Source: Candidatus Hydrogenedentota bacterium
Lineage (GTDB): Bacteria > Hydrogenedentota > Hydrogenedentia > Hydrogenedentales > CAITNO01
Assembly (NCBI GenBank): GCA_022706235.1
Contig: JAKJCY010000022.1
Location: forward strand, 1 to 36,972
Direction of reading: 5' to 3'
DNA: 36,972 nucleotides
The notes beneath the pieces are model-generated. The model saw only the letters and a list, made by a program, of their open reading frames with translations, was not told the origin of the DNA and did no database searches. Position 1 is the first letter of the stretch; each line of letters starts with the position of its first letter. Below, one piece after another: positions 3,395-35,371 of this stretch. The position numbers and the translations under genes were made by a program.

Positions 3395-5533
3395 ATGAAG
3401 ACCATCAACCTGATTTTCGGCTGTCATGCCCACCAACCGGTCGGCAACTTTGACTTTGTTTTTGAACGGGCCTACCGGGAATGTTACCGCCCTTTTCTCG
3501 ATGTATTGGAGCACTTTCCGGGCGTCCAGGTTACCATGCATTTTACTGGTCCGCTCCTGGACTGGTTTGAACACGCCGCCCCGGATTTTCTGGACCGTCT
3601 CGCGGCATTGGTAAGCAGTGGACAGATAGAAATGATGGGCGGCGGCTATTATGAACCGCTTCTATGCGCCATCCCGGAACGGGACGCCCTGCGACAGATT
3701 GAACGGATGCACCTCTATTGCGAGAAACGATTCGGCGCAAAGGTACGGGGCATGTGGCTGACGGAACGTGTCTGGGAACCGCAGATGGCGCATATTCTGG
3801 CCAAATCCGGCATCGAATATACCCCGCTGGATGACGCGCATTTTCTCTGCTCCGGCCTGGAGCCAGAACAGATGTTCGGCTATTACATGACCGAAGACGA
3901 GGGCTTTACCGTGAAAGTCTTTCCCATACTGGAGCGGTTACGCTATTTGGTTCCATTCCACCAGGTAGAGGAAACCATAACCTGGCTGAATGACCAAGCC
4001 ACGGAGTCGGGAACACGATGTGCGGTGCTTCACGACGATTACGAAAAATTCGGGGTGTGGCCGGGAACAAACAAGAGCGTCTATAAAGAAGGATGGCTGG
4101 AGCATTTTTTTCAGGCGTTGACCGAAAACAAGGACTGGCTGCACAGCGTTACCTATTCGCAATACCTGGACGCCAATACCGCCCTTGGCCGCACCTACAT
4201 CCCTTGCGCGTCTTATGATGAAATGATGACCTGGGCCCTGCCGACGGCCATGCAACGGGAACTCGTGCGGGCCCGGGAAAAACTCCGCCAATCGCCCGAT
4301 TTGCACCAGAGGTGTGCCCGATTCATGCGAGGAGGATTCTGGCGGAGTTTTCTATCTAAATATGAGGAATCCAACAACATCCAGAAGCGGATGCTGCGCA
4401 CCAGCACACGCCTGGACCGGCTGCGCCGTGAAATGCCTGCGTCTGAAATGCTTGACGAGGCCGAAAAGATGCTGCACCAAGGCCAATGTAACTGCGCCTA
4501 TTGGCATGGTGTTTTCGGCGGCCTCTATCTGAATCACCTGCGCACCGCACTGTATGAAAAGATTATTGCATCAGACGCACTTATGGACGCAGTAGAAGTC
4601 CGTGACACGGCGCAAAGCCGTTTTGTAGCGGTGGACTTTGATGCGGACGGAAACTTGGAGGGCATACTTGAAAATGACCATATCGCGCTATTCTTCAAGC
4701 CCTCTGATGGGGGCACCCTGTTTGAATTTGACTACAAGCCACAACCCTTTAATTTTGGGAATGTACTTACACGTCGGGAAGAAGTATACCACGACCAGCT
4801 TCGCCACGGCGGCGTTCTGGTGGGAGAGGAATCCGGGGGCGACCTGAGCATACACGATCTTGTTAAAGCCAAAGAAAAAGACTTGGATAAACTGCTTGTT
4901 TACGATCCCTGGCGCCGCGTTTCCCTGCGTGACCGTTTTATCGCGAACACCGCCTCTGCGGACTCTTTATGGAGCGGTCTGGAACCGGAACTGGGCTCTT
5001 TCGCCAGGCATCCATACACCATGTCCGGAAAAGACGGCCAGATTTCCCTGGAAGCATACGGTACTATTGCCGGCACGGCAGGAGGACTACTGCATCTCCA
5101 GAAAAACGTGAAGTTGCCGCGTGGAGAATCCTGTTTTGATGTAACCTATACTATCCATTTTGACTGCGCGCTCCCATCTGATATACTTTTCGGGGTAGAA
5201 CTGGCCGTTAATTTCCTTACGGGGAATGCGCCCGACCGTTACCTTTGGTCTGAGCACATCAAGGTGGATGATGGAAGATTGGGCGTACGTGGAGAACTGC
5301 CGGCGACAAAGCACCTTGCGGCAAGGGACGACTGGCAACGTCTCGAACTTGCGTTTTCTTTTTTGCCTCCGGCCCGAGTGTTCCGGTTCCCCTTGGATAC
5401 GGTCAGCCAATCTGAAGATGGACAGGAACGCGTGCATCAGGGATGCATCTTGCTGCCCTGCTGGAACCTTCCTGGAGACGGAAAAGAATTCACTATCGAT
5501 TTTCGCGTAATGGCATCCAGATTGATTGATTAA
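3395..5533 (+). CDS. GH57 4-alpha-glucanotransferase / alpha-amylase
   Basis: This 712-residue glycoside hydrolase family 57 enzyme has an N-terminal (beta/alpha)7 barrel beginning with the family signature FGCHAHQPVGNF. The nucleophile is E124 in WLTERVWEP, and the acid/base is D214 or D215 in LHDDYEKFGVWPG. These positions nearly coincide with Glu123/Asp214 of the Thermococcus litoralis glucanotransferase. The C-terminal half resembles the DUF1925/DUF1926 beta-sandwich of that subgroup. I chose the ATG at 3395, which has a purine-rich agaaagaag upstream, over a GTG in frame at 3344. No signal peptide is seen, so it likely acts on cytoplasmic glycogen or maltodextrin. Amylase and transferase activities cannot be separated by sequence alone. 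Confidence 0.88.
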   Translation: MKTINLIFGCHAHQPVGNFDFVFERAYRECYRPFLDVLEHFPGVQVTMHFTGPLLDWFEHAAPDFLDRLAALVSSGQIEMMGGGYYEPLLCAIPERDALRQIERMHLYCEKRFGAKVRGMWLTERVWEPQMAHILAKSGIEYTPLDDAHFLCSGLEPEQMFGYYMTEDEGFTVKVFPILERLRYLVPFHQVEETITWLNDQATESGTRCAVLHDDYEKFGVWPGTNKSVYKEGWLEHFFQALTENKDWLHSVTYSQYLDANTALGRTYIPCASYDEMMTWALPTAMQRELVRAREKLRQSPDLHQRCARFMRGGFWRSFLSKYEESNNIQKRMLRTSTRLDRLRREMPASEMLDEAEKMLHQGQCNCAYWHGVFGGLYLNHLRTALYEKIIASDALMDAVEVRDTAQSRFVAVDFDADGNLEGILENDHIALFFKPSDGGTLFEFDYKPQPFNFGNVLTRREEVYHDQLRHGGVLVGEESGGDLSIHDLVKAKEKDLDKLLVYDPWRRVSLRDRFIANTASADSLWSGLEPELGSFARHPYTMSGKDGQISLEAYGTIAGTAGGLLHLQKNVKLPRGESCFDVTYTIHFDCALPSDILFGVELAVNFLTGNAPDRYLWSEHIKVDDGRLGVRGELPATKHLAARDDWQRLELAFSFLPPARVFRFPLDTVSQSEDGQERVHQGCILLPCWNLPGDGKEFTIDFRVMASRLID

Positions 5534-8833: not shown

Positions 8834-9988
8834 ATGGTCAAACGTATTTCCATATTGGGTTCCACCGGCAGTATTGGTAGAAATACTCTTGATGTAATCA
8901 GGAGAAACCCGCAAGCGTTTAAAGTCGAAGCCCTCGCGGCTCGCGGCAACGCCGGGTTGCTTCGTGAACAAATCCTTGAATTTCGTCCAGCTCTGGCCGC
9001 GCTTCATCACGTGGAAGCCGCAGAAGCGCTGCGGGATTCCAATCCAGGCTGCGCTATTTTTTCCGGCATCGAAGGTCTTAAAGAGGTGGCTGCCCACCCT
9101 GCGGATTTGGTGGTAAACGCCCTGGTCGGCGCGGTTGGGCTCAATCCTCTTCTGGCCGCAATAAACGCCGGAAACCATGTGGCCATCGCGAACAAAGAGC
9201 CCCTGGTAATGGCGGGCAGGTATATCCTTGAGAAGGCGCGCCGCGCCGGTATAAGCGTGTTGCCCATAGACAGTGAACACAGCGCTATTTTTCAATGTAT
9301 GCAGGGTAATCGCAGGGAGGATGTGCGATGTGTCCATCTTACGGCTTCGGGCGGGCCGTTTTACGATAAAAGCCCGGAGGAATTGCACCACATCACCCCT
9401 GAGCAAGCCATGCGCCATCCGACATGGGACATGGGCAATAAAATCAGCGTGGACTCCGCAACGCTCATGAACAAGGGACTGGAAATAATTGAAGCAATGT
9501 GGTTGTTTGGTCTACGATCAGACCAGATTCAGGTTGTCATACATCCTCAAAGCATCGTACATAGCATGGTCGAGTTTAATGATGGAAGCCTGATCGCCCA
9601 GCTCGGGAGAACCGACATGCGTCTGCCGATAGCGTATGCGCTTGGTTTTCCGGAACGGCTACCCGCACCATGCGATATGCGGCTTGACGTGACATCGTTA
9701 ACGAAACTAAGCTTCAGTACGCCGAATGATAGCGCTTTCCCGTGTTTGCGGCTGGCACGCAGGGCGGCTCAAGCCGGGGGCACGGCCCCGGCAGTCCTGA
9801 ACGGTGCTAACGAGATAGCTGTGGAGCTGTTTTGCGCGGGGAAAATTGCCTTTAACACAATCGCCGAGATTGTCGACCAAACCCTGGAACGCTGCGATAT
9901 CTCTTCCGAATATAGATTGGACGCGATACTCGAAGCGGACCGAACCGCCCGGGAATGCGCCCGGGCTATTGCCCGAACCATGGAATAA
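8834..9988 (+). CDS. dxr: 1-deoxy-D-xylulose 5-phosphate reductoisomerase
   Basis: This 384-residue enzyme makes 2-C-methyl-D-erythritol 4-phosphate with NADPH in the MEP isoprenoid pathway. The nucleotide loop is GSTGSIGRNTLDV (9-21). Metal ligands D146 and E148 lie in IDSEHSAIFQC, and E217 in MNKGLEIIEA. Substrate motifs ANKEPLV, SGGPF and HPTWDMG are intact. The gap to enzyme I is 23 bases and to rseP 6 bases, so a dxr-rseP pair is likely co-transcribed, an arrangement common in bacteria. Confidence 0.96.
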   Translation: MVKRISILGSTGSIGRNTLDVIRRNPQAFKVEALAARGNAGLLREQILEFRPALAALHHVEAAEALRDSNPGCAIFSGIEGLKEVAAHPADLVVNALVGAVGLNPLLAAINAGNHVAIANKEPLVMAGRYILEKARRAGISVLPIDSEHSAIFQCMQGNRREDVRCVHLTASGGPFYDKSPEELHHITPEQAMRHPTWDMGNKISVDSATLMNKGLEIIEAMWLFGLRSDQIQVVIHPQSIVHSMVEFNDGSLIAQLGRTDMRLPIAYALGFPERLPAPCDMRLDVTSLTKLSFSTPNDSAFPCLRLARRAAQAGGTAPAVLNGANEIAVELFCAGKIAFNTIAEIVDQTLERCDISSEYRLDAILEADRTARECARAIARTME

Positions 9989-28670: not shown

Positions 28671-29852
28671 TTACTTTAGCGAGGCTAACGGAATGACCGC
28701 CATTTCGGCGCTGTTCAGGTTCTTTCCCCGACCACCGTCGTTCGAATACGCCACATATAAAAATCCTTTATGTTCCACAGCATAGGGATAAGACAGGGCT
28801 GCCCCAATCACCGATTCGCCGGGGATGCCGTGTGCAACGGCATCACGTATGCAAAACAGTCGTGAAAGATAGTTTTCGCCCGGTCGGCTGACGGCAAGGG
28901 TCAGCGGATGCCGCACGCGGCCATGGTCACGCACCAGCGTACCGACTACGTAGCGTTGCCCGGTGCTTAATTGTCCGGCATAGGCCTTGGTACCGGGCAT
29001 GGGAAGATTGGATCGTTGCACAGGGTACCACGTGCATCCGAAATCGAGGCTGGTCGATACGAGGGCGTGATCAAGGGTACCCCCGGCGCGGACGATAGCG
29101 GTGAGTTCTTCTGGCGCTGTGATGAGAGTCGTTTCTCCCCAGATATCCAAGTGGTCATCCGGCACGGGTATGGCAACTGTGTCCCACCGGGTAAAATCAT
29201 TTCCCCGGCTTATCGCTACCACAGGATAGGCGTGGCCCGGACCGTCAGGGATCCGGGCGCCCGCCATGATCCAATTGCCATTTTCCATGGGTACTGGCCG
29301 GTCGCACGGCCAGAAACCGTCAGCAACAACCCCTGTCGACTCCCAGGTAATATCACTATCCTCTTGGGACAGAGGCGCTTTAATAAGCCGGAAAGCCTCG
29401 GTTTTGAGATCTGCATAAGCCGCCCCAAACCGGGCGAGGAACGCCCATAAGATGCCTTTGTGCGATAGAAATACCCCATGACTTCGGGCTTCGCTACCCA
29501 CGTTCGGCGCCAGCATCCATACGGGACTCCAGGTGACACCGCCGTCCAGGCTGTGACGCCCCTGCGCCACTTCTGTGGGCGTATTCTCGTCGGATTTGTT
29601 GTGCCCCCAGAAACTGAACAACATATCGTTGTGCCAGGCCAGGGCGAGTCCGTGCAACCAGTTGTACCCGTCCACTTCCGGCTCCCGTTTCTTGATGACG
29701 GAGAAGCGCACGCCTTGCAGCAGGGGAGTCTCAGAAGCTGCAGGCACAAGTGTCGCAGGTTCCCACAACGGGAACGCCGCAGTTTCCTCAGCGGTAACCT
29801 CAGCCAACAGGCCGGAACTTATGAAGCACCCCGCAATAAGTAAACGAATCAT
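28671..29852 (-). CDS. Secreted sialidase-like (BNR/Asp-box) protein
   Basis: This 393-residue protein has a signal peptide (residues 1-21, MIRLLIAGCFISSGLLAEVTA) and a six-bladed-propeller pattern. Asp-box motifs are SLDGGVTWSP and STSLDFGCTWYP, with degenerate ones near FTRWDTVAIP. The sialidase superfamily includes true sialidases and many exo-glycosidases or binding proteins; the catalytic Arg triad, Tyr and Glu were not assigned confidently, so activity is uncertain. The ATG at 29852 gives a proper signal peptide and has agagg upstream; the frame extends further to 29957 without one. Confidence 0.75.
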   Translation of the reverse strand: MIRLLIAGCFISSGLLAEVTAEETAAFPLWEPATLVPAASETPLLQGVRFSVIKKREPEVDGYNWLHGLALAWHNDMLFSFWGHNKSDENTPTEVAQGRHSLDGGVTWSPVWMLAPNVGSEARSHGVFLSHKGILWAFLARFGAAYADLKTEAFRLIKAPLSQEDSDITWESTGVVADGFWPCDRPVPMENGNWIMAGARIPDGPGHAYPVVAISRGNDFTRWDTVAIPVPDDHLDIWGETTLITAPEELTAIVRAGGTLDHALVSTSLDFGCTWYPVQRSNLPMPGTKAYAGQLSTGQRYVVGTLVRDHGRVRHPLTLAVSRPGENYLSRLFCIRDAVAHGIPGESVIGAALSYPYAVEHKGFLYVAYSNDGGRGKNLNSAEMAVIPLASLK

Positions 29853-30239
29853 GACGCCTCTATCTTGTTTTGTATGTATCTTGAACACCATAGCCGGAAA
29901 CAAAATATCATAAACATAAAAGAATGCTGTAATAAAGAATGGACAAGTCATTGACAAATCGGTACAGGCATTGCTTCACATTGGCCCATCTGTTTTCGCG
30001 AGGCGTTTAAAGCCATTTCGCTGACAATTAGTTGTGAATTTGAAATTTGGTTGTCTTTGTAGGGTAGGTGGAGTGAAACCATGCATTGTTCGCCCGAGGC
30101 ACTTTATTTTCTTAGATCAAAAAATATTGTCGAAAACAAAGAGATGCCAGAATGCAACCCACCGTCACTTTGTATGAATCGCGGGATGGTGGGTTGCGCT
30201 TAAACCTTGAGTAACTTGGGACATACCCCTTTTTTTTCG
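29853..30239. other. Intergenic region with one hairpin
   Basis: This 387-base stretch lies between the sialidase-like gene and the truncated toxin. Apart from the inverted repeat at 30154-30197 and an A/T-rich block near 30115-30140, I see no gene or motif. A T-run (30231-30237) directly abuts the toxin remnant. Confidence 0.55.
30154..30197. repeat. Inverted repeat next to the truncated toxin gene
   Basis: gcaacccaccgtc (30154-30166) and gatggtgggttgc (30185-30197) pair over 12 of 13 positions around an 18-base loop. Similar tggtgggttgcgc elements occur as dispersed repeats in other bacterial genomes. It lies 42 bases beyond the abrupt end of the VapC-like frame. Confidence 0.55.
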
Positions 30240-30461
30240 TCATAACCAGGCACTCAGTCCATGATTTATGGTTTCGCTCCACCCACCCTTCCGTTCTGCG
30301 ACGAGAAGCACGTTACCCACTTCCAGAGGCCATATCGCTGGAACAACCGCTTCACTTTCTTCAAGACACTCCAAGACGGCATCGGTATAGTGACTGGTCT
30401 CATCCTCGAAACACCAAGCCATAACCACGGAATTGTCCACGTCGAACCGTGTCGGCGTCAT
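30240..30461 (-). pseudogene. Truncated VapC-like PIN-domain toxin
   Basis: The first 55 or so residues match the start of VapC-type ribonucleases: DVDNSVVMAWCFEDE with the first acidic metal ligand, and VVPAIWPLEVGNVLLVAERKGG with the conserved Glu. The usual second half of the PIN domain, with its further Asp ligands, is absent. The frame ends after 73 residues with an unrelated tail, against about 130-140 for intact relatives. Its start overlaps the antitoxin stop by four bases, so the original operon layout is preserved. It is probably an inactive toxin remnant cut by a deletion or a repeat insertion. Confidence 0.75.
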
Positions 30462-30697
30462 CGGCGCCCCTCCTCAATCATCTCCCGTATCGACAGGCTG
30501 CCCATGCGCTTTCCGGTTCGGAATTGTTTGAGGGCGGCAATGACATTGGCCGCAGGCTTCCTCTTCGAGGAACGTATAGGTTCCAAAGTGGCTACGGGAA
30601 CACCATGTTTTTCAATGGTGAATCGTTCTCCCTTGGCCACGCGCTCAAGCAGTTTAGACAGGTGTGTTTTAGCTTCAAAGGCGCCCGCACTAGGCAT
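30458..30697 (-). CDS. Phd/YefM-type antitoxin
   Basis: This 79-residue antitoxin has the N-terminal Phd/YefM DNA-binding fold (GAFEAKTHLSKLLERVAKGERFTIEKHGVPVATLEP) and a C-terminal toxin-binding tail (GSLSIREMIEEGRR). Such proteins neutralise a partner RNase and repress their own operon. The partner, overlapping by ATGA, is a truncated VapC-like gene, so the antitoxin may now have no toxin to bind here. Confidence 0.88.
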   Translation of the reverse strand: MPSAGAFEAKTHLSKLLERVAKGERFTIEKHGVPVATLEPIRSSKRKPAANVIAALKQFRTGKRMGSLSIREMIEEGRR

Positions 30698-30905
30698 GTT
30701 GTGTATCCTTTCATCTGGTTGAAGACTAGTTTATTTTATGTTGTCTAAAAAGTCAATAATTTGGGTGAGAAGGTGGCGGGTGCCGATACGATTTCGAGGC
30801 GAACTGTAACCGCGATGGGGCTTTGGGGCATACCGGTACCAGTCCCCGTTTTCGTTCCGACAGTTGTCTATTTATTATTGCTCCCCTATCCTACCTGTCG
30901 AGGAA

Positions 30906-30958
30906 TCTTTCTCGCTACGGTGTGATTCTAAATCCTTCCAATCCCCAGGGAGGCAGCA
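30906..30958. repeat. 53-bp direct repeat, left copy (detached glycosidase 3' end)
   Basis: This matches 33392-33444 at 52 of 53 positions. The right copy contains the last 14 codons plus stop of the glycosidase-like gene and 9 downstream bases. The left copy has no gene attached, so it is a duplicated fragment. The near identity suggests a recent event. The two copies bracket the FGE-fold gene in direct orientation. Confidence 0.9.
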
Positions 30959-30987
30959 AACCATAAACAAGAAGTAAAAACTAGAGC

Positions 30988-31071
30988 AAAAATGGGACTG
31001 CCTCCGGCGCCCGCATTGGCTGGGGGCGTTGCAGGCAATCTTGGACCGCGGCGGAGGCTGTCCCGCTTTTT
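30988..31071. repeat. Palindromic element, left copy
   Basis: The left arm starts at 30988 (aaaaatgggactgcctccgg...) and the right arm spans about 31047-31071 (...ggcggaggctgtccc). It is about 90% identical over some 87 bases to the element at 33300-33382, including the loop (ttggctgggggcgttgc). The arms carry a few mismatches compared with the better-preserved right copy. Confidence 0.85.
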
Positions 31072-31093
31072 GCGGGCGTAGCGCACAGGACCG

Positions 31094-31216
31094 AAAAAAT
31101 TGGGAACAGTTCCCGCCGCGGGTGGGTTGGTGTTTATCAGTCTATACCCATGTCTGTGGTAGAGGCGTTTTCTCGGGGCCTTTTTGTATGGGGCGGCGGA
31201 AACAGTCCCATTTTTT
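31094..31216. repeat. Second, diverged palindromic element
   Basis: The arm 31094-31119 (aaaaaattgggaacagttcc...) pairs imperfectly with 31193-31216 (gcggcggaaacagtccca...) across a 73-base loop. The left arm contains its own palindrome gggaacagttccc. The right end cagtcccattttttcttggg resembles the edge of the 33300-33382 element, so they appear to be one family. Confidence 0.65.
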
Positions 31217-31360
31217 CTTGGGCGTATCGGGCAAGCAGGAAAATAAGGTTATGTTTTGCCACGGCAAAATATATATGATACGTTATAATGCAATATGTTC
31301 GAGTGAAACATGAATCGAAGGAACGACAAGAACACAGAAATCAGAACGGAGGAATGTGAG

Positions 31361-33037
31361 ATGCTTAAGGAATCTGTGCGTTTGAGTAACGGGTGTGTGG
31401 CGCTGGCGGGGTTGCTGGCGATGGTAGTGTTGGGCGCCGGTATGGCGCGGGCGGAAGTGCTGCCGGAAGGCAAATGGTATTATGAAGGCGAGATCCCATA
31501 CGAAGGGGAACTCCCGCCTGAGGGCGAGGGGGAACCGCCGTTTCAAAGTCACCCGGCGGACGCCAATGGAGATGGCCGGATGACGATGAGTGAGGCGATT
31601 GGGTATCTGGCGTGCTGGCAGCAGGGGAGCTGTCTCATGTCCTATGCCATCCGCGCGGCGTATCTGTGGCAGAACGGGGAGGGGTACACTTATGATGCTT
31701 CTTTGGATCCGCCGATGTGTTGGGAATTACCGGCGCCTGCGGAGGGAGAAGTGATGTATTCGCTCATGCTGGGACTGGGCGCGGTGAACCCGGAGTATAT
31801 TCATGGCAGTATTACGCCCGCTCCGGAACCGGACGAGATGTGTCTGCCGCTCGAGGGTCAGCCCTGGTGCGGGCTATACCCGGAGGGGACGGAGGTATGG
31901 TTGACGCCTGTGCCGGATGCGGGCTATGCCTTTGACCACTGGACGGGCGATCTGAGCGGGAATCAAGTGCCCGCGCTAGTCGTGATGAACGACGATAAAC
32001 ATGTCATTGCCGAATTCGTTGCTCTCGCCGAGGGGGAAGGCGAGATTCCCGTGGAAGGCGAGCCGGTGGTGGTTCCCGGGGAACTGGTGGACGTGCCCGC
32101 GGGCACGTTCCAGATGGGCGACCCGTGGAATGAAGGAGGGGAGGAGGAGAGACCGGTGCATGCGGTAACGTTGGACGCGTACTGGATTGGCAAGTACGAA
32201 GTGACGAATCAGGAATATGCGGACGTCTTGAACTGGGCCCACGGGCGGGGCTACCTGACCAATTCCGGTGGCGGCGCATATACGGGCGGGTTGATTTATG
32301 CCTATAACCGGGCCATCGCGGACACGGAAACCAGTTCTAGTTATTCCCAACTCACGTACAGCGGCGGTGTGTTTGGCGTGCGTAGCCGCGCGGGGCATGG
32401 CGGGGTGCTGTATTCCATGGCGGATCATCCCGTAGTCTGGGTTAGTTGGTATGGCGCGGTGTGTTACTGCAACTGGCTGAGTGAGCAGCAGGGGCTGCAG
32501 GCCTGTTATGATACGGCGACCTGGACGCGGTACGAACCGGTGCGCATTGGCTACCGGCTGCCCACGGAGGCCGAGTGGGAGCGCGCGGCGGCGTGGGACG
32601 GCAGCCGGCACTGGCGCTACGGCATGACGAGTGATACGATTGACAATACCCGCGCGAACTATTGTGAAAGTGGTTACGCGAACCCGCTGAGGTTGACGGG
32701 TTATCCTTATACGTCGCCGGTGGGCTGGTATAATGGAGTGAACCCGGCACGGGTAAGCGCCCCGGGCACGTTGACGGTGAACGCGACGAGTCCGGTGGGC
32801 GCGTATGACATGAGCGGCAACGTGTGGGAGTGGTGCCACGACTGGTATGACCAAACCTATTATGCGGGCGGCGCGATGACGAATCCGCTGGGGCCGTCCG
32901 CCGGTTCGTCTCGTGTGCTGCGGGGCGGCTCCTGGGTCGACTCCGTCTGGCTCACCCGCTCGGCCGACCGCAGCTGGAGCGGTCCGGACAGCAGGTACAT
33001 CATGGTCGAGTTCCGCGTCGCGGTTTCGTCCCGCTAG
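31361..33037 (+). CDS. Secreted FGE-sulfatase/C-type-lectin-fold protein with DGR-like variable C-terminus
   Basis: This 558-residue protein has a signal peptide (1-31), a Glu-Gly-Glu linker (about 42-58), an EF-hand/dockerin-like calcium loop DANGDGRMTMSE (67-78), an InlB-type B-repeat (GTEVWLTPVPDAGYAFDHWTGD, about 176-218), a second EGE linker (224-235), then a formylglycine-generating-enzyme-fold domain (240-558: VPAGTFQMGD, YEVTNQEYADVLNW, RLPTEAEWERAA, YDMSGNVWEWCHDWY, RVLRGGSW...). Most such proteins are non-catalytic C-type-lectin-fold ligand binders. Codons 32936-33010 look like the variable region of a DGR (see findings). The ATG at 31361 has ggagg seven bases upstream; an in-frame ATG at 31310 lacks a site and would bury the signal peptide. 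Confidence 0.88.
   Translation: MLKESVRLSNGCVALAGLLAMVVLGAGMARAEVLPEGKWYYEGEIPYEGELPPEGEGEPPFQSHPADANGDGRMTMSEAIGYLACWQQGSCLMSYAIRAAYLWQNGEGYTYDASLDPPMCWELPAPAEGEVMYSLMLGLGAVNPEYIHGSITPAPEPDEMCLPLEGQPWCGLYPEGTEVWLTPVPDAGYAFDHWTGDLSGNQVPALVVMNDDKHVIAEFVALAEGEGEIPVEGEPVVVPGELVDVPAGTFQMGDPWNEGGEEERPVHAVTLDAYWIGKYEVTNQEYADVLNWAHGRGYLTNSGGGAYTGGLIYAYNRAIADTETSSSYSQLTYSGGVFGVRSRAGHGGVLYSMADHPVVWVSWYGAVCYCNWLSEQQGLQACYDTATWTRYEPVRIGYRLPTEAEWERAAAWDGSRHWRYGMTSDTIDNTRANYCESGYANPLRLTGYPYTSPVGWYNGVNPARVSAPGTLTVNATSPVGAYDMSGNVWEWCHDWYDQTYYAGGAMTNPLGPSAGSSRVLRGGSWVDSVWLTRSADRSWSGPDSRYIMVEFRVAVSSR
32936..33010 (+). other. Candidate DGR variable region
   Basis: After the conserved VLRGGSW and before FRVA, 25 codons hold residues at the places where related template-derived proteins carry Asn runs. 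Seventeen of the 25 codons end in C (for example GTC, GAC, TCC, CTC, AGC, TAC), against 7 of the 25 codons ending at the TCC just before. No Asn codon remains. This is what adenine mutagenesis of AAC codons would leave. No template repeat or reverse transcriptase is in the window. Confidence 0.55.
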
Positions 33038-33041
33038 ACTC

Positions 33042-33058
33042 CCGAACCCGGGTTTCGG
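33042..33058 (+). repeat. Hairpin just past the FGE-fold gene stop
   Basis: The stem CCGAACCC / GGGTTTCGG (with one bulged T) contains the perfect palindrome AACCCGGGTT at 33045-33054. It starts five bases after the stop codon. In phage BPP-1 the variable region is likewise followed closely by a hairpin needed for homing; the position here is suggestive only. It could equally be a rho-independent-like structure without a T-run. Confidence 0.45.
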
Positions 33059-33299
33059 TCTTTACCGCCGGTGAACGCCGAAAGCGGCGCGCGGCCCGAA
33101 AGGGCGTTACGGGAGACTACAGGCCGGTTCCCGCGCCGTGCGCCCGTATGAAATGCGCACGGACAAATACAGAACCGGGCCCGGGCGGCCTGGTAGCGTA
33201 ATGCGAAGGGCCGCCTGGGCTTTTGCGAAAGCGAGATGCAACATGTCCCGAAGTGACTTCGCCGGTAATCGCACTTTTTCTTGATAGCAAACAAGGAGC

Positions 33300-33382
33300 A
33301 AAAATGGGACTGCCTCCGGCGCGCGTGTTGGCTGGGGGCGTTGCGGGTAATCTTGGAGCGCGCCGGAGGCTGTCCCATTTTT
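33300..33382. repeat. Palindromic element, right copy
   Basis: The left arm (33300-33323, aaaaatgggactgcctccgg...) and right arm (33359-33382) are reverse complements at 23 of 24 positions around a 35-base loop. It begins 262 bases after the FGE-fold gene and ends 9 bases before the 53-bp repeat. The arms with A/T ends and a fixed loop suggest a MITE- or REP-like mobile palindrome, which could also act as a bidirectional terminator between the convergent genes. Confidence 0.85.
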
Positions 33383-33391
33383 TCTTGGGAG

Positions 33392-33444
33392 TCTTTCTCG
33401 CTACGGTGTGATTCTAAATCCTTCCAATCCCCAGGGCGGCAGCA
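33392..33444. repeat. 53-bp direct repeat, right copy (true glycosidase 3' end)
   Basis: This covers the last 14 codons and stop of the glycosidase-like gene plus 9 bases beyond. It is 52 of 53 identical to 30906-30958. The intervening 2,433 bases contain the FGE-fold gene and palindromes. Confidence 0.9.
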
Positions 33445-35371
33445 TACTGGTTGACATACAGTCCAGAATGGTTCCTTCCGCGTGTTCGGCCCCTGTTTCC
33501 GCGTTGATGCGGGTCAATTGATATTCCCCGGACATGCCGAGCGCCTCCGGGTCCAGGGTGAGCGTTGCGGTCACAGGAAACGTACCAAGATTGGCGACGA
33601 TAACCAGCCAGGCATCCGCCGTCCGGTAGACGACACCCTGCACATTTGGGTCGGATGCCTTCAGTACAACACGGTTCTGACCGGGAAGATTAAAGGCTTC
33701 CGCCTTTTCAACATCCATATAGGACAACAATCTCCAGTAAGGCATTATGAATGCGTACTCCGGCCCATCCGCTTCCAGGGAGAAGGTATATCCTTCGCCG
33801 TGTTCCGCCTTCATGCCCATCACCAGGTGCGGGTAAACGCCCCAGGCGGCCATTTTGGCCGTGCCTTCCGCGTTACGATACGCGGGCAGGTCGAGCGTCC
33901 AGGGCATACACACGCTACCGCCCAACATGCCCTTGTAGCCGGCCTCGACGATATCGGAAAACATTAACCGGTCGCTGCCCGTTTCGCCGGGGAGATAAGC
34001 GTCAAAACACAAGTTGGCCAGAATGCCTGAATTGAACGAGCCCTGGTGGCCGATGAGAAATCCTTTCTCTCCGACCAAATCCCGCAGGCGCCGGGTAAAC
34101 ATAAAATAGTCCTTTGCGGGAACATGGGTGCCGTTCGGGCTGTAATGGGTATCGCCAAGGATTATTTCCGGATCGTATTGGCTTTCATGCCATGAGACCG
34201 CTGTGGGCCCGTGCCAGTCCACGTAGAGTCCATCCCAATCCCGTCGGCAATAGGTTTCAAAGAATCCCGAATCGAGTGCGTACGGTTCGATGCCGCGCAT
34301 GTACAGTCCCATCCGCAGCCCCTTCTGATGCGCATAGGCCAGGGCCTTTACCATCTCCTCATGATTCCGGGCTTCCCGGTAGTCGGCGTGGGGGTTGCCG
34401 TTGCTGCCGCGCTGACGCATCCATTCCATGTGGAGAATGAGCATGGTGGCGTTTGCCTCAACCATTTTGTCTATCTGTGCTTCTGTTGGATACCAGTGTT
34501 CCAGGTCCAGCCAGTTCACCCAATGGAAGACCCGCTGTCCCACTGCGTTGCTTCTCGGAGGTCCGCTAACGGCGGTCCCACACCCGAGGGCGAACGCATT
34601 CCTGTATTCAAAAGGGCCTTTCAGTGTAGTGCTGTTCGTTCCCAGTCGCCAGCAAAACCTGCCTTCACCCTCCTTTTGAAACAGCGCATTGCCAGACAAA
34701 GGTCGTTTATGCTCCACAAAGACTTCCACCTCGTTGGTGAAGCTTTTAGCCGTGTTGGCACCGAAGGCAACCCGGGCGGAAGGAAAACCGTTCCCCTGCT
34801 TGGCGACATTTTCATCACGAAACCGGACAAAGTGCCGCAGGGTTTCGTTCACATCGAAATGAAGGGCAATCTCGCCCGAAGCCTCCGCGCCGACTGGAAG
34901 AGTCAATAGGACGTTTACAAAAACGGCGCCCTCCGGACAGATGAGATATTCAAGCCGAACCCGCCAGGGAAATACCGTTCCGTCTTCGGCGCGAGGCGCG
35001 GCCTCCACCGAACACTGAATATCCCCACCGGTTTCCCGTAGTCCATGGAGGGATGCACTTGTGTCCAGGGCAAGGCGATATTCTTTCCCGCCGTCTTGCA
35101 GAGACAAGGCAGGAAAACCCCGGTCCGGTCCCGGAAATAGTTCGTGCCACAGACTGCCGTCATAAAGTTGGATCTCGGAGACCGTTCCTCCGTACTGTCC
35201 GTCCACAATCATCCGGAAATGGTCTCCAAAAATCCTGGCTGAGGACGCTGTCTTTTCCAAAGTCAATCCGGCGCCGCATGGCACAGCACGCAGGAGGACA
35301 ATAAAGGCAAGTAACATTCCGCCGTACGGGAACCGCCTGTCCGACGGCCGGTGTTTCCGTTTGGGGCTCAT
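33401..35371 (-). CDS. Secreted glycosidase-like protein (TIM barrel, DUF6259-like)
   Basis: This 656-residue protein has a signal peptide (about 16-35, YGGMLLAFIVLLRAVPCGAG), an N-terminal beta-sandwich resembling the first domain of GH31/GH36-clan enzymes (about 36-270), a TIM barrel (about 290-560, with EWMRQRG, RMGLYMRGIEPY, DWDGLYVDWHGP and LIGHQGSFNSGI), and a small C-terminal beta-domain. I could not assign catalytic residues; the Asp in YVDWHGP at a strand end is a candidate. The exact family is uncertain. It overlaps the alpha-galactosidase stop by ATGA, so the two are translationally coupled and likely act on the same glycan. Its 3' end is duplicated at 30906-30958. Confidence 0.72.
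   Translation of the reverse strand: MSPKRKHRPSDRRFPYGGMLLAFIVLLRAVPCGAGLTLEKTASSARIFGDHFRMIVDGQYGGTVSEIQLYDGSLWHELFPGPDRGFPALSLQDGGKEYRLALDTSASLHGLRETGGDIQCSVEAAPRAEDGTVFPWRVRLEYLICPEGAVFVNVLLTLPVGAEASGEIALHFDVNETLRHFVRFRDENVAKQGNGFPSARVAFGANTAKSFTNEVEVFVEHKRPLSGNALFQKEGEGRFCWRLGTNSTTLKGPFEYRNAFALGCGTAVSGPPRSNAVGQRVFHWVNWLDLEHWYPTEAQIDKMVEANATMLILHMEWMRQRGSNGNPHADYREARNHEEMVKALAYAHQKGLRMGLYMRGIEPYALDSGFFETYCRRDWDGLYVDWHGPTAVSWHESQYDPEIILGDTHYSPNGTHVPAKDYFMFTRRLRDLVGEKGFLIGHQGSFNSGILANLCFDAYLPGETGSDRLMFSDIVEAGYKGMLGGSVCMPWTLDLPAYRNAEGTAKMAAWGVYPHLVMGMKAEHGEGYTFSLEADGPEYAFIMPYWRLLSYMDVEKAEAFNLPGQNRVVLKASDPNVQGVVYRTADAWLVIVANLGTFPVTATLTLDPEALGMSGEYQLTRINAETGAEHAEGTILDCMSTSMLPPWGLEGFRITP

Follow-up and report, generated by a model that had tools for sequence, protein, structure and literature searches.

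The window analyzed here is the whole 36,972-nucleotide stretch that constitutes contig C144 of G000, a draft Candidatus Hydrogenedentota MAG of 545 contigs (88% complete, 6% contaminated). It contains a gene of the FGE-sulfatase family, whose 3' end had been proposed in a preliminary description to be the target of a diversity-generating retroelement (DGR) served in trans from elsewhere in the genome. The locus raises the question of whether this end is a DGR variable repeat, which kind of template wrote it, and whether it is still being rewritten.

The coordinates in the preliminary description were correct (Table 1). The protein displays a hydrophobic segment at the N-terminus, linkers rich in EGE and, at the C-terminus, an FGE-sulfatase (C-type-lectin-like) domain with the variable repeat at its end. 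The Pfam FGE-sulfatase family was matched at residues 258–571 of 575 (E = 2e-52). With a signal peptide judged by eye only, this FGE/C-type-lectin-fold protein is probably secreted. After the sequence RVLRGGSY, the solved FGEs carry RVLRGGSYLCHDSYCNRYR, whose cysteines we take to be the catalytic ones, while the window protein carries RVLRGGSWVDSVWLTR; the cysteines of true FGEs were absent from it at the aligned positions, and it does not qualify as a catalytic FGE. TvpA (PDB 2y3c) was matched by residues 496–571 (E = 3e-14), and from the TvpA/FGE-fold relatives we infer a binding role, with the repeat located in the ligand-binding tip. The AlphaFold model of the protein (mean pLDDT 46.7) was too poor for mapping the variable residues.

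The codon pattern that had drawn attention to this gene was reproduced. The 25 codons between VLRGGSW and FRVA (positions 32936–33010) contain no Asn, and 17 of them end in C, compared with 7 in the preceding 25 codons. At least 17 C-ending codons were found in 10 of the 551 sliding 25-codon windows of the gene, the first at codon index 536, and all 10 fall at the C-terminal variable stretch. The absence of Asn alone was a weak sign and not unusual, with 203 of the 551 windows lacking this residue.

The gene itself sits between direct repeats (30902–31071 and 33296–33447). One is a hairpin-bearing repeat of 88 bases (90%), the other a copy, 60 bases long (95%), of the end of the neighboring gene 33401–35371, and their order is swapped between the two sides. 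These dispersed repeats were considered as a possible mobility mechanism; no clear target-site duplication was found.

When positions 32850–33100 were used as a query against the G000 genome, similar places were found on contigs C534 and C111. Contig C534 carries a complete DGR, with an FGE target (577 aa), an Avd protein (129 aa), an RT (343 aa) and then the template, all on one strand. The Avd protein was matched by NCBIfam DivGenRetAVD with 82.2 bits (cut-off 80) and by Pfam bAvd with 54.6 (cut-off 40). The best solved relative of the RT was PDB 8ub7 (E = 3.3e-60), presumably the RT of BPP-1, and its closest named relative, 90% identical, was found in a Candidatus Hydrogenedentota MAG. The motifs IGNQTSQ and YVDD of this RT (protein P0002) place it in the DGR clade, the hallmark of which is (I/V/L)GxxxSQ together with YxDD (PMC3521204). 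The template repeat (RGGSWNNNNRNTRSANRNRNNPDNRNNNNGFR) is Asn-rich and encodes RVLRGGSWNNNNRNTRSANRNRNNPDNRNNNNGFRVA. In the cis pair, 15 of the 33 template adenines were changed in the target repeat and none of the 66 other bases, as is characteristic of a DGR. Hence, the AAC-rich template, the RT and the avd gene that had been expected elsewhere in the genome were all located on this contig. A group II intron RT on C222 was ruled out as the mutator by its QGxxxSP motif. Further Avd/IVP-like matches are present on other contigs, and one avd gene adjoins the C534 RT.

Some additional features of the C534 cassette were recorded. In its cis repeat (L014, about 9345–9450, minus strand), which is Asp-rich, all 15 changed adenines had become G and none T or C; A-to-G changes accounted for 97 of 228 when the window and 12 other repeats were pooled, and the chance of the all-G pattern was about 3e-6. 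A HigB-like toxin and helix-turn-helix antitoxin-like pair (L014, 5718–6334, minus strand) is situated shortly downstream of the DGR template and falls in a stretch missing from the sister genome G006: at 1448–1486 of G006:C226 (L088), which corresponds to L014 5608–11551, the flanking genes are present and the DGR cassette is absent. A related cassette of G006, 85% identical, is found on a different contig and next to another FGE target, which suggests that the DGR cassette is mobile and switches targets.

The window repeat was then compared with the C534 template over 99 bases in register. Differences were observed at 22 of the 33 adenines (10 to G, 10 to T and 2 to C) and at 3 of the 66 other bases (Fisher p = 5e-11), so that 63 non-adenine positions and 11 adenines were identical. 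The differences are thus adenine-biased, although not perfectly confined to adenines, and the cis repeats of C534 and G006:C255 have no non-adenine difference at all. A genome-wide pattern in which each core template adenine was left free and up to three mismatches were allowed was found in only three places in G000, namely the template, the cis target and the window. The G006:C255 template was rejected as the writer of the window repeat, with 8 non-adenine differences against 3 for the C534 template. The homologue on C111 showed 6 non-adenine differences from the G006-type template against 11 from the C534 template, and can be read as an older, decayed target. Of 13 loci, named or related, for which a pair was taken forward, 12 yielded adenine-specific template/repeat pairs in the same type of scan, and G006:C7 yielded a similar pair; the method therefore works. 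Together with the Pfam match, the adenine-specific differences confirm the proposal that this FGE-fold gene ends in a DGR variable repeat. We consider it almost certain that this stretch was written by a DGR, and very likely that its template was of the C534 type. The repeat has been diversified at least once in the past.

Table 1. Coordinates of the features of the target locus in the window.
Feature	Positions	Strand	Basis
Target gene	31310–33037	+	ORF and translation, 575 aa
DGR variable repeat	32907–33037	+	Repeat starts at about 32907; gapless core 32918–33016 compared base by base
Stop codon TAG (AAG in both templates), meeting point of target-type and template-type sequence	33035–33037	+	Alignment of three target-flank repeats, the window and two templates
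Template-type 3' flank (structured, spacer-like), replacing the target-type flank and hairpin	33038–33224	+	Identity to the C534 template flank; shared fold

The 3' flank of the window gene did not correspond to that of a target. The variable repeats of C534, C111 and G006:C255 share a target-type flank, TAG-YCGGATC..., and in the cis targets of C534 and C255 a hairpin with an 11-bp stem, GCAAGGGGGGA-4 nt-TCCCCCCTTGC, lies 3' of the stop codon. A GC-rich hairpin was also present 3' of the variable repeat in several other related loci. In the two templates, the sequence AAG-ACTCCCGAACCCGGG was observed, and the window reads TAG-ACTCCCGAACCCGGG. The template-like sequence continues beyond the stop codon to about 33224: the window flank and the C534 template flank are identical at 169 of 187 bases (90%), with a 25-base deletion near 33086. 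No hairpin stem of at least 7 bp was found in the window flank, which thus does not present the IMH-plus-hairpin arrangement of a target-type 3' site. When the window flank and the two template flanks were folded together, 6 of 67 pairs were compensated on both sides (three sequences only). Because this fold, with its compensated pairs, is shared with the template flanks, the window flank is probably a DGR spacer element. At a number of positions where the window flank departs from that of C534, pairing is preserved, and this points to a working sister template, and not C534 itself, as the source of the window flank.

In BPP-1, a recipient must have an IMH where the repeat ends, with a hairpin downstream (PMC3240598). 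The window gene has neither the family hairpin nor the target-type flank, and is therefore without what homing needs in the Bordetella model. With no target-type 3' site, it was filed as a former, orphaned target and not as a working recipient. Part of the IMH of the window/C534 family may lie upstream of the stop codon, in a portion that is largely preserved in the window. Since the hairpin and the target-type flank are missing, the reading that we favor, with some reserve, is that the window gene is an orphaned binder whose sequence is frozen.

Under the proposed course of events, the steps of which are taken from the Bordetella model, template RNA of the type found on C534 would have been copied by the SQ-motif RT with Avd, with errors opposite adenines, and the cDNA would have replaced the 3' end of the target gene (mutagenic retrohoming). 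Later, or in the same event, recombination between the variable repeat and a template repeat would have joined the target body to the template 3' flank, with loss of the target-type flank. The simplest route would be the collapse of a sister cassette (target-avd-RT-template), in which avd and the RT would have been lost. Non-adenine divergence amounts to 3/66 in the repeat and 18/187 in the flank, values that are compatible with a single event (p = 0.30) and smaller than the roughly 19% of the gene body, which shares 81% DNA identity with the cis target of C534 across 1.7 kb; recombination within a sister cassette is favored by this compatibility. The DNA upstream of the window gene was not collinear with the C534 cassette, except for a dispersed repeat, and the in-place collapse of the whole cassette is therefore unproven; the transfer of a repeat-plus-spacer piece would look the same as such a collapse.

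A second, more decayed fusion was found on G006:C349, where an FGE gene ends in TAG-ACTCCTGAATC, followed by the terminal hairpin of the spacer. This fusion supports recombination between variable and template repeats, and it may share an origin with the window case. The same contig (L076) contains, at 943–2970, one open frame encoding a pair of FGE domains, both of which have a repeat-like end; the second terminates in TAG, with template-type flank after it.

The only other copy of the locus, on G006:C272 (L074), was compared with positions 29469–34276 of the window. The two differ at 6 of 4808 bases (99.9% identity); the six SNPs all lie at 29667–30678, none was found in the last 3.6 kb (30679–34276), and the repeat is identical. 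G000 and G006 were treated as different species, and the neighboring syntenic contigs of G006 are 82% and 97% identical, against 99.9% for the 4.8-kb C272, which may have been exchanged recently or misbinned. The identical copy fits a frozen repeat, but also an exchanged or misbinned contig, and was set aside as a proof of inactivity for being weak. Present diversification of the window repeat in trans appears doubtful. The template-type flank, the missing target-type flank and hairpin, the three non-adenine differences and the identical sister copy leave the claim that the repeat is now served in trans unsupported.

Three other explanations were weighed. The window gene could be an active remote target, still rewritten in trans by the C534 RT, Avd and template, for which the target-type flank would be unneeded. 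The same genome does hold a complete, intact-looking DGR, nearly all non-adenine bases of the repeat match its template, and trans activity on remote targets has been reported in Thiohalocapsa PB-PSB1 (PMC10907252). Nevertheless, non-adenine differences do occur in the window repeat and not in the cis repeats, the flank and hairpin of a target are missing, and the two copies seen show no variation, so that we regard continuing activity as unlikely. A much less probable explanation is that a transcript of the window repeat and its spacer serves the C534 RT and Avd as a template, so that the diversified sequence spreads to other targets. The direct joining of the repeat to a spacer-like element that has kept its pairing despite about 10% divergence would agree with this; the window gene would then be both product and template, and its repeat a heritable donor and not a dead end. 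However, the wildcard pattern found only the template, the cis target and the window, and so no target in the genome with a copy of the window repeat; moreover, the spacer has suffered the 25-base deletion, and the pairing may have been kept in the sister template before the fusion.

Ordinary paralogy, in which a divergent FGE-family gene would have a C-terminus that is merely DGR-like, has in its favor the ten FGE-family matches to the window protein in G000 and the conservation of LRGGSW and GFR as motifs of the FGE fold. Simple descent would, however, spread the differences over all bases and not concentrate them at adenines, and the flank is template-derived. This explanation is already contradicted by the wildcard-pattern and adenine-count results, and its probability is negligible.

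An orphaned target can be set beside several known systems. The Treponema denticola DGR has the same kind of FGE/C-type-lectin-like variable protein, TvpA, and several targets, some of them remote. The available sections of the report on T. denticola SP32 describe a remote gene by its fit to the template of another strain. The authors regard this gene as a remnant of a lost DGR, and in these sections a joint between target and template flank is unmentioned (PMC4891356). With Bordetella phage BPP-1 (Mtd, Avd, bRT), the family shares adenine-specific rewriting, Avd, a template followed by a structured spacer, and a hairpin downstream of the cis target. The gene order is target-avd-RT-template in C534, whereas in BPP-1 the template lies between avd and the RT; also unlike BPP-1, the window target is on another contig and has no hairpin. 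In Thiohalocapsa PB-PSB1, too, a genome has several targets, among them remote ones that are diversified in trans, and repeats and transposons have reshaped the loci (PMC10907252). Its trans targets match the template at all non-adenine sites, in contrast to the window repeat, with its three differences and template-type flank.

Additionally, contig C29 of G000 (L107, about 4000–4250, minus strand) carries another Asn-rich template (RGGNWNNNAQNCRSANRNNNWPDNRNNNIGFR), which differs from that of C534 and has spacer-like sequence in its flank. No RT was found beside it in the short stretch before the contig end. Contig C60 (L108) ends inside a flank near-identical to that of the C29 template. G000 may contain a further, unassembled DGR of the G006:C7/C35 type.

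In the literature searched, from which most subscription papers fell outside the scope, no mention was found of DGRs together with Hydrogenedentes or Hydrogenedentota. Starting from one window, a remote DGR target was recognized and linked to its template within a draft genome that is fragmented; targets of this kind escape surveys restricted to the neighborhood of the RT (PMC8144416). The new point is the 3' flank, that is, a target gene running into a template-type flank. If the orphaning is true, the type of 3' flank would be a simple sequence test to separate active from frozen targets, and recombination between repeats, rather like the formation of solo LTRs, would let DGRs fix one binder and shed the mutator.
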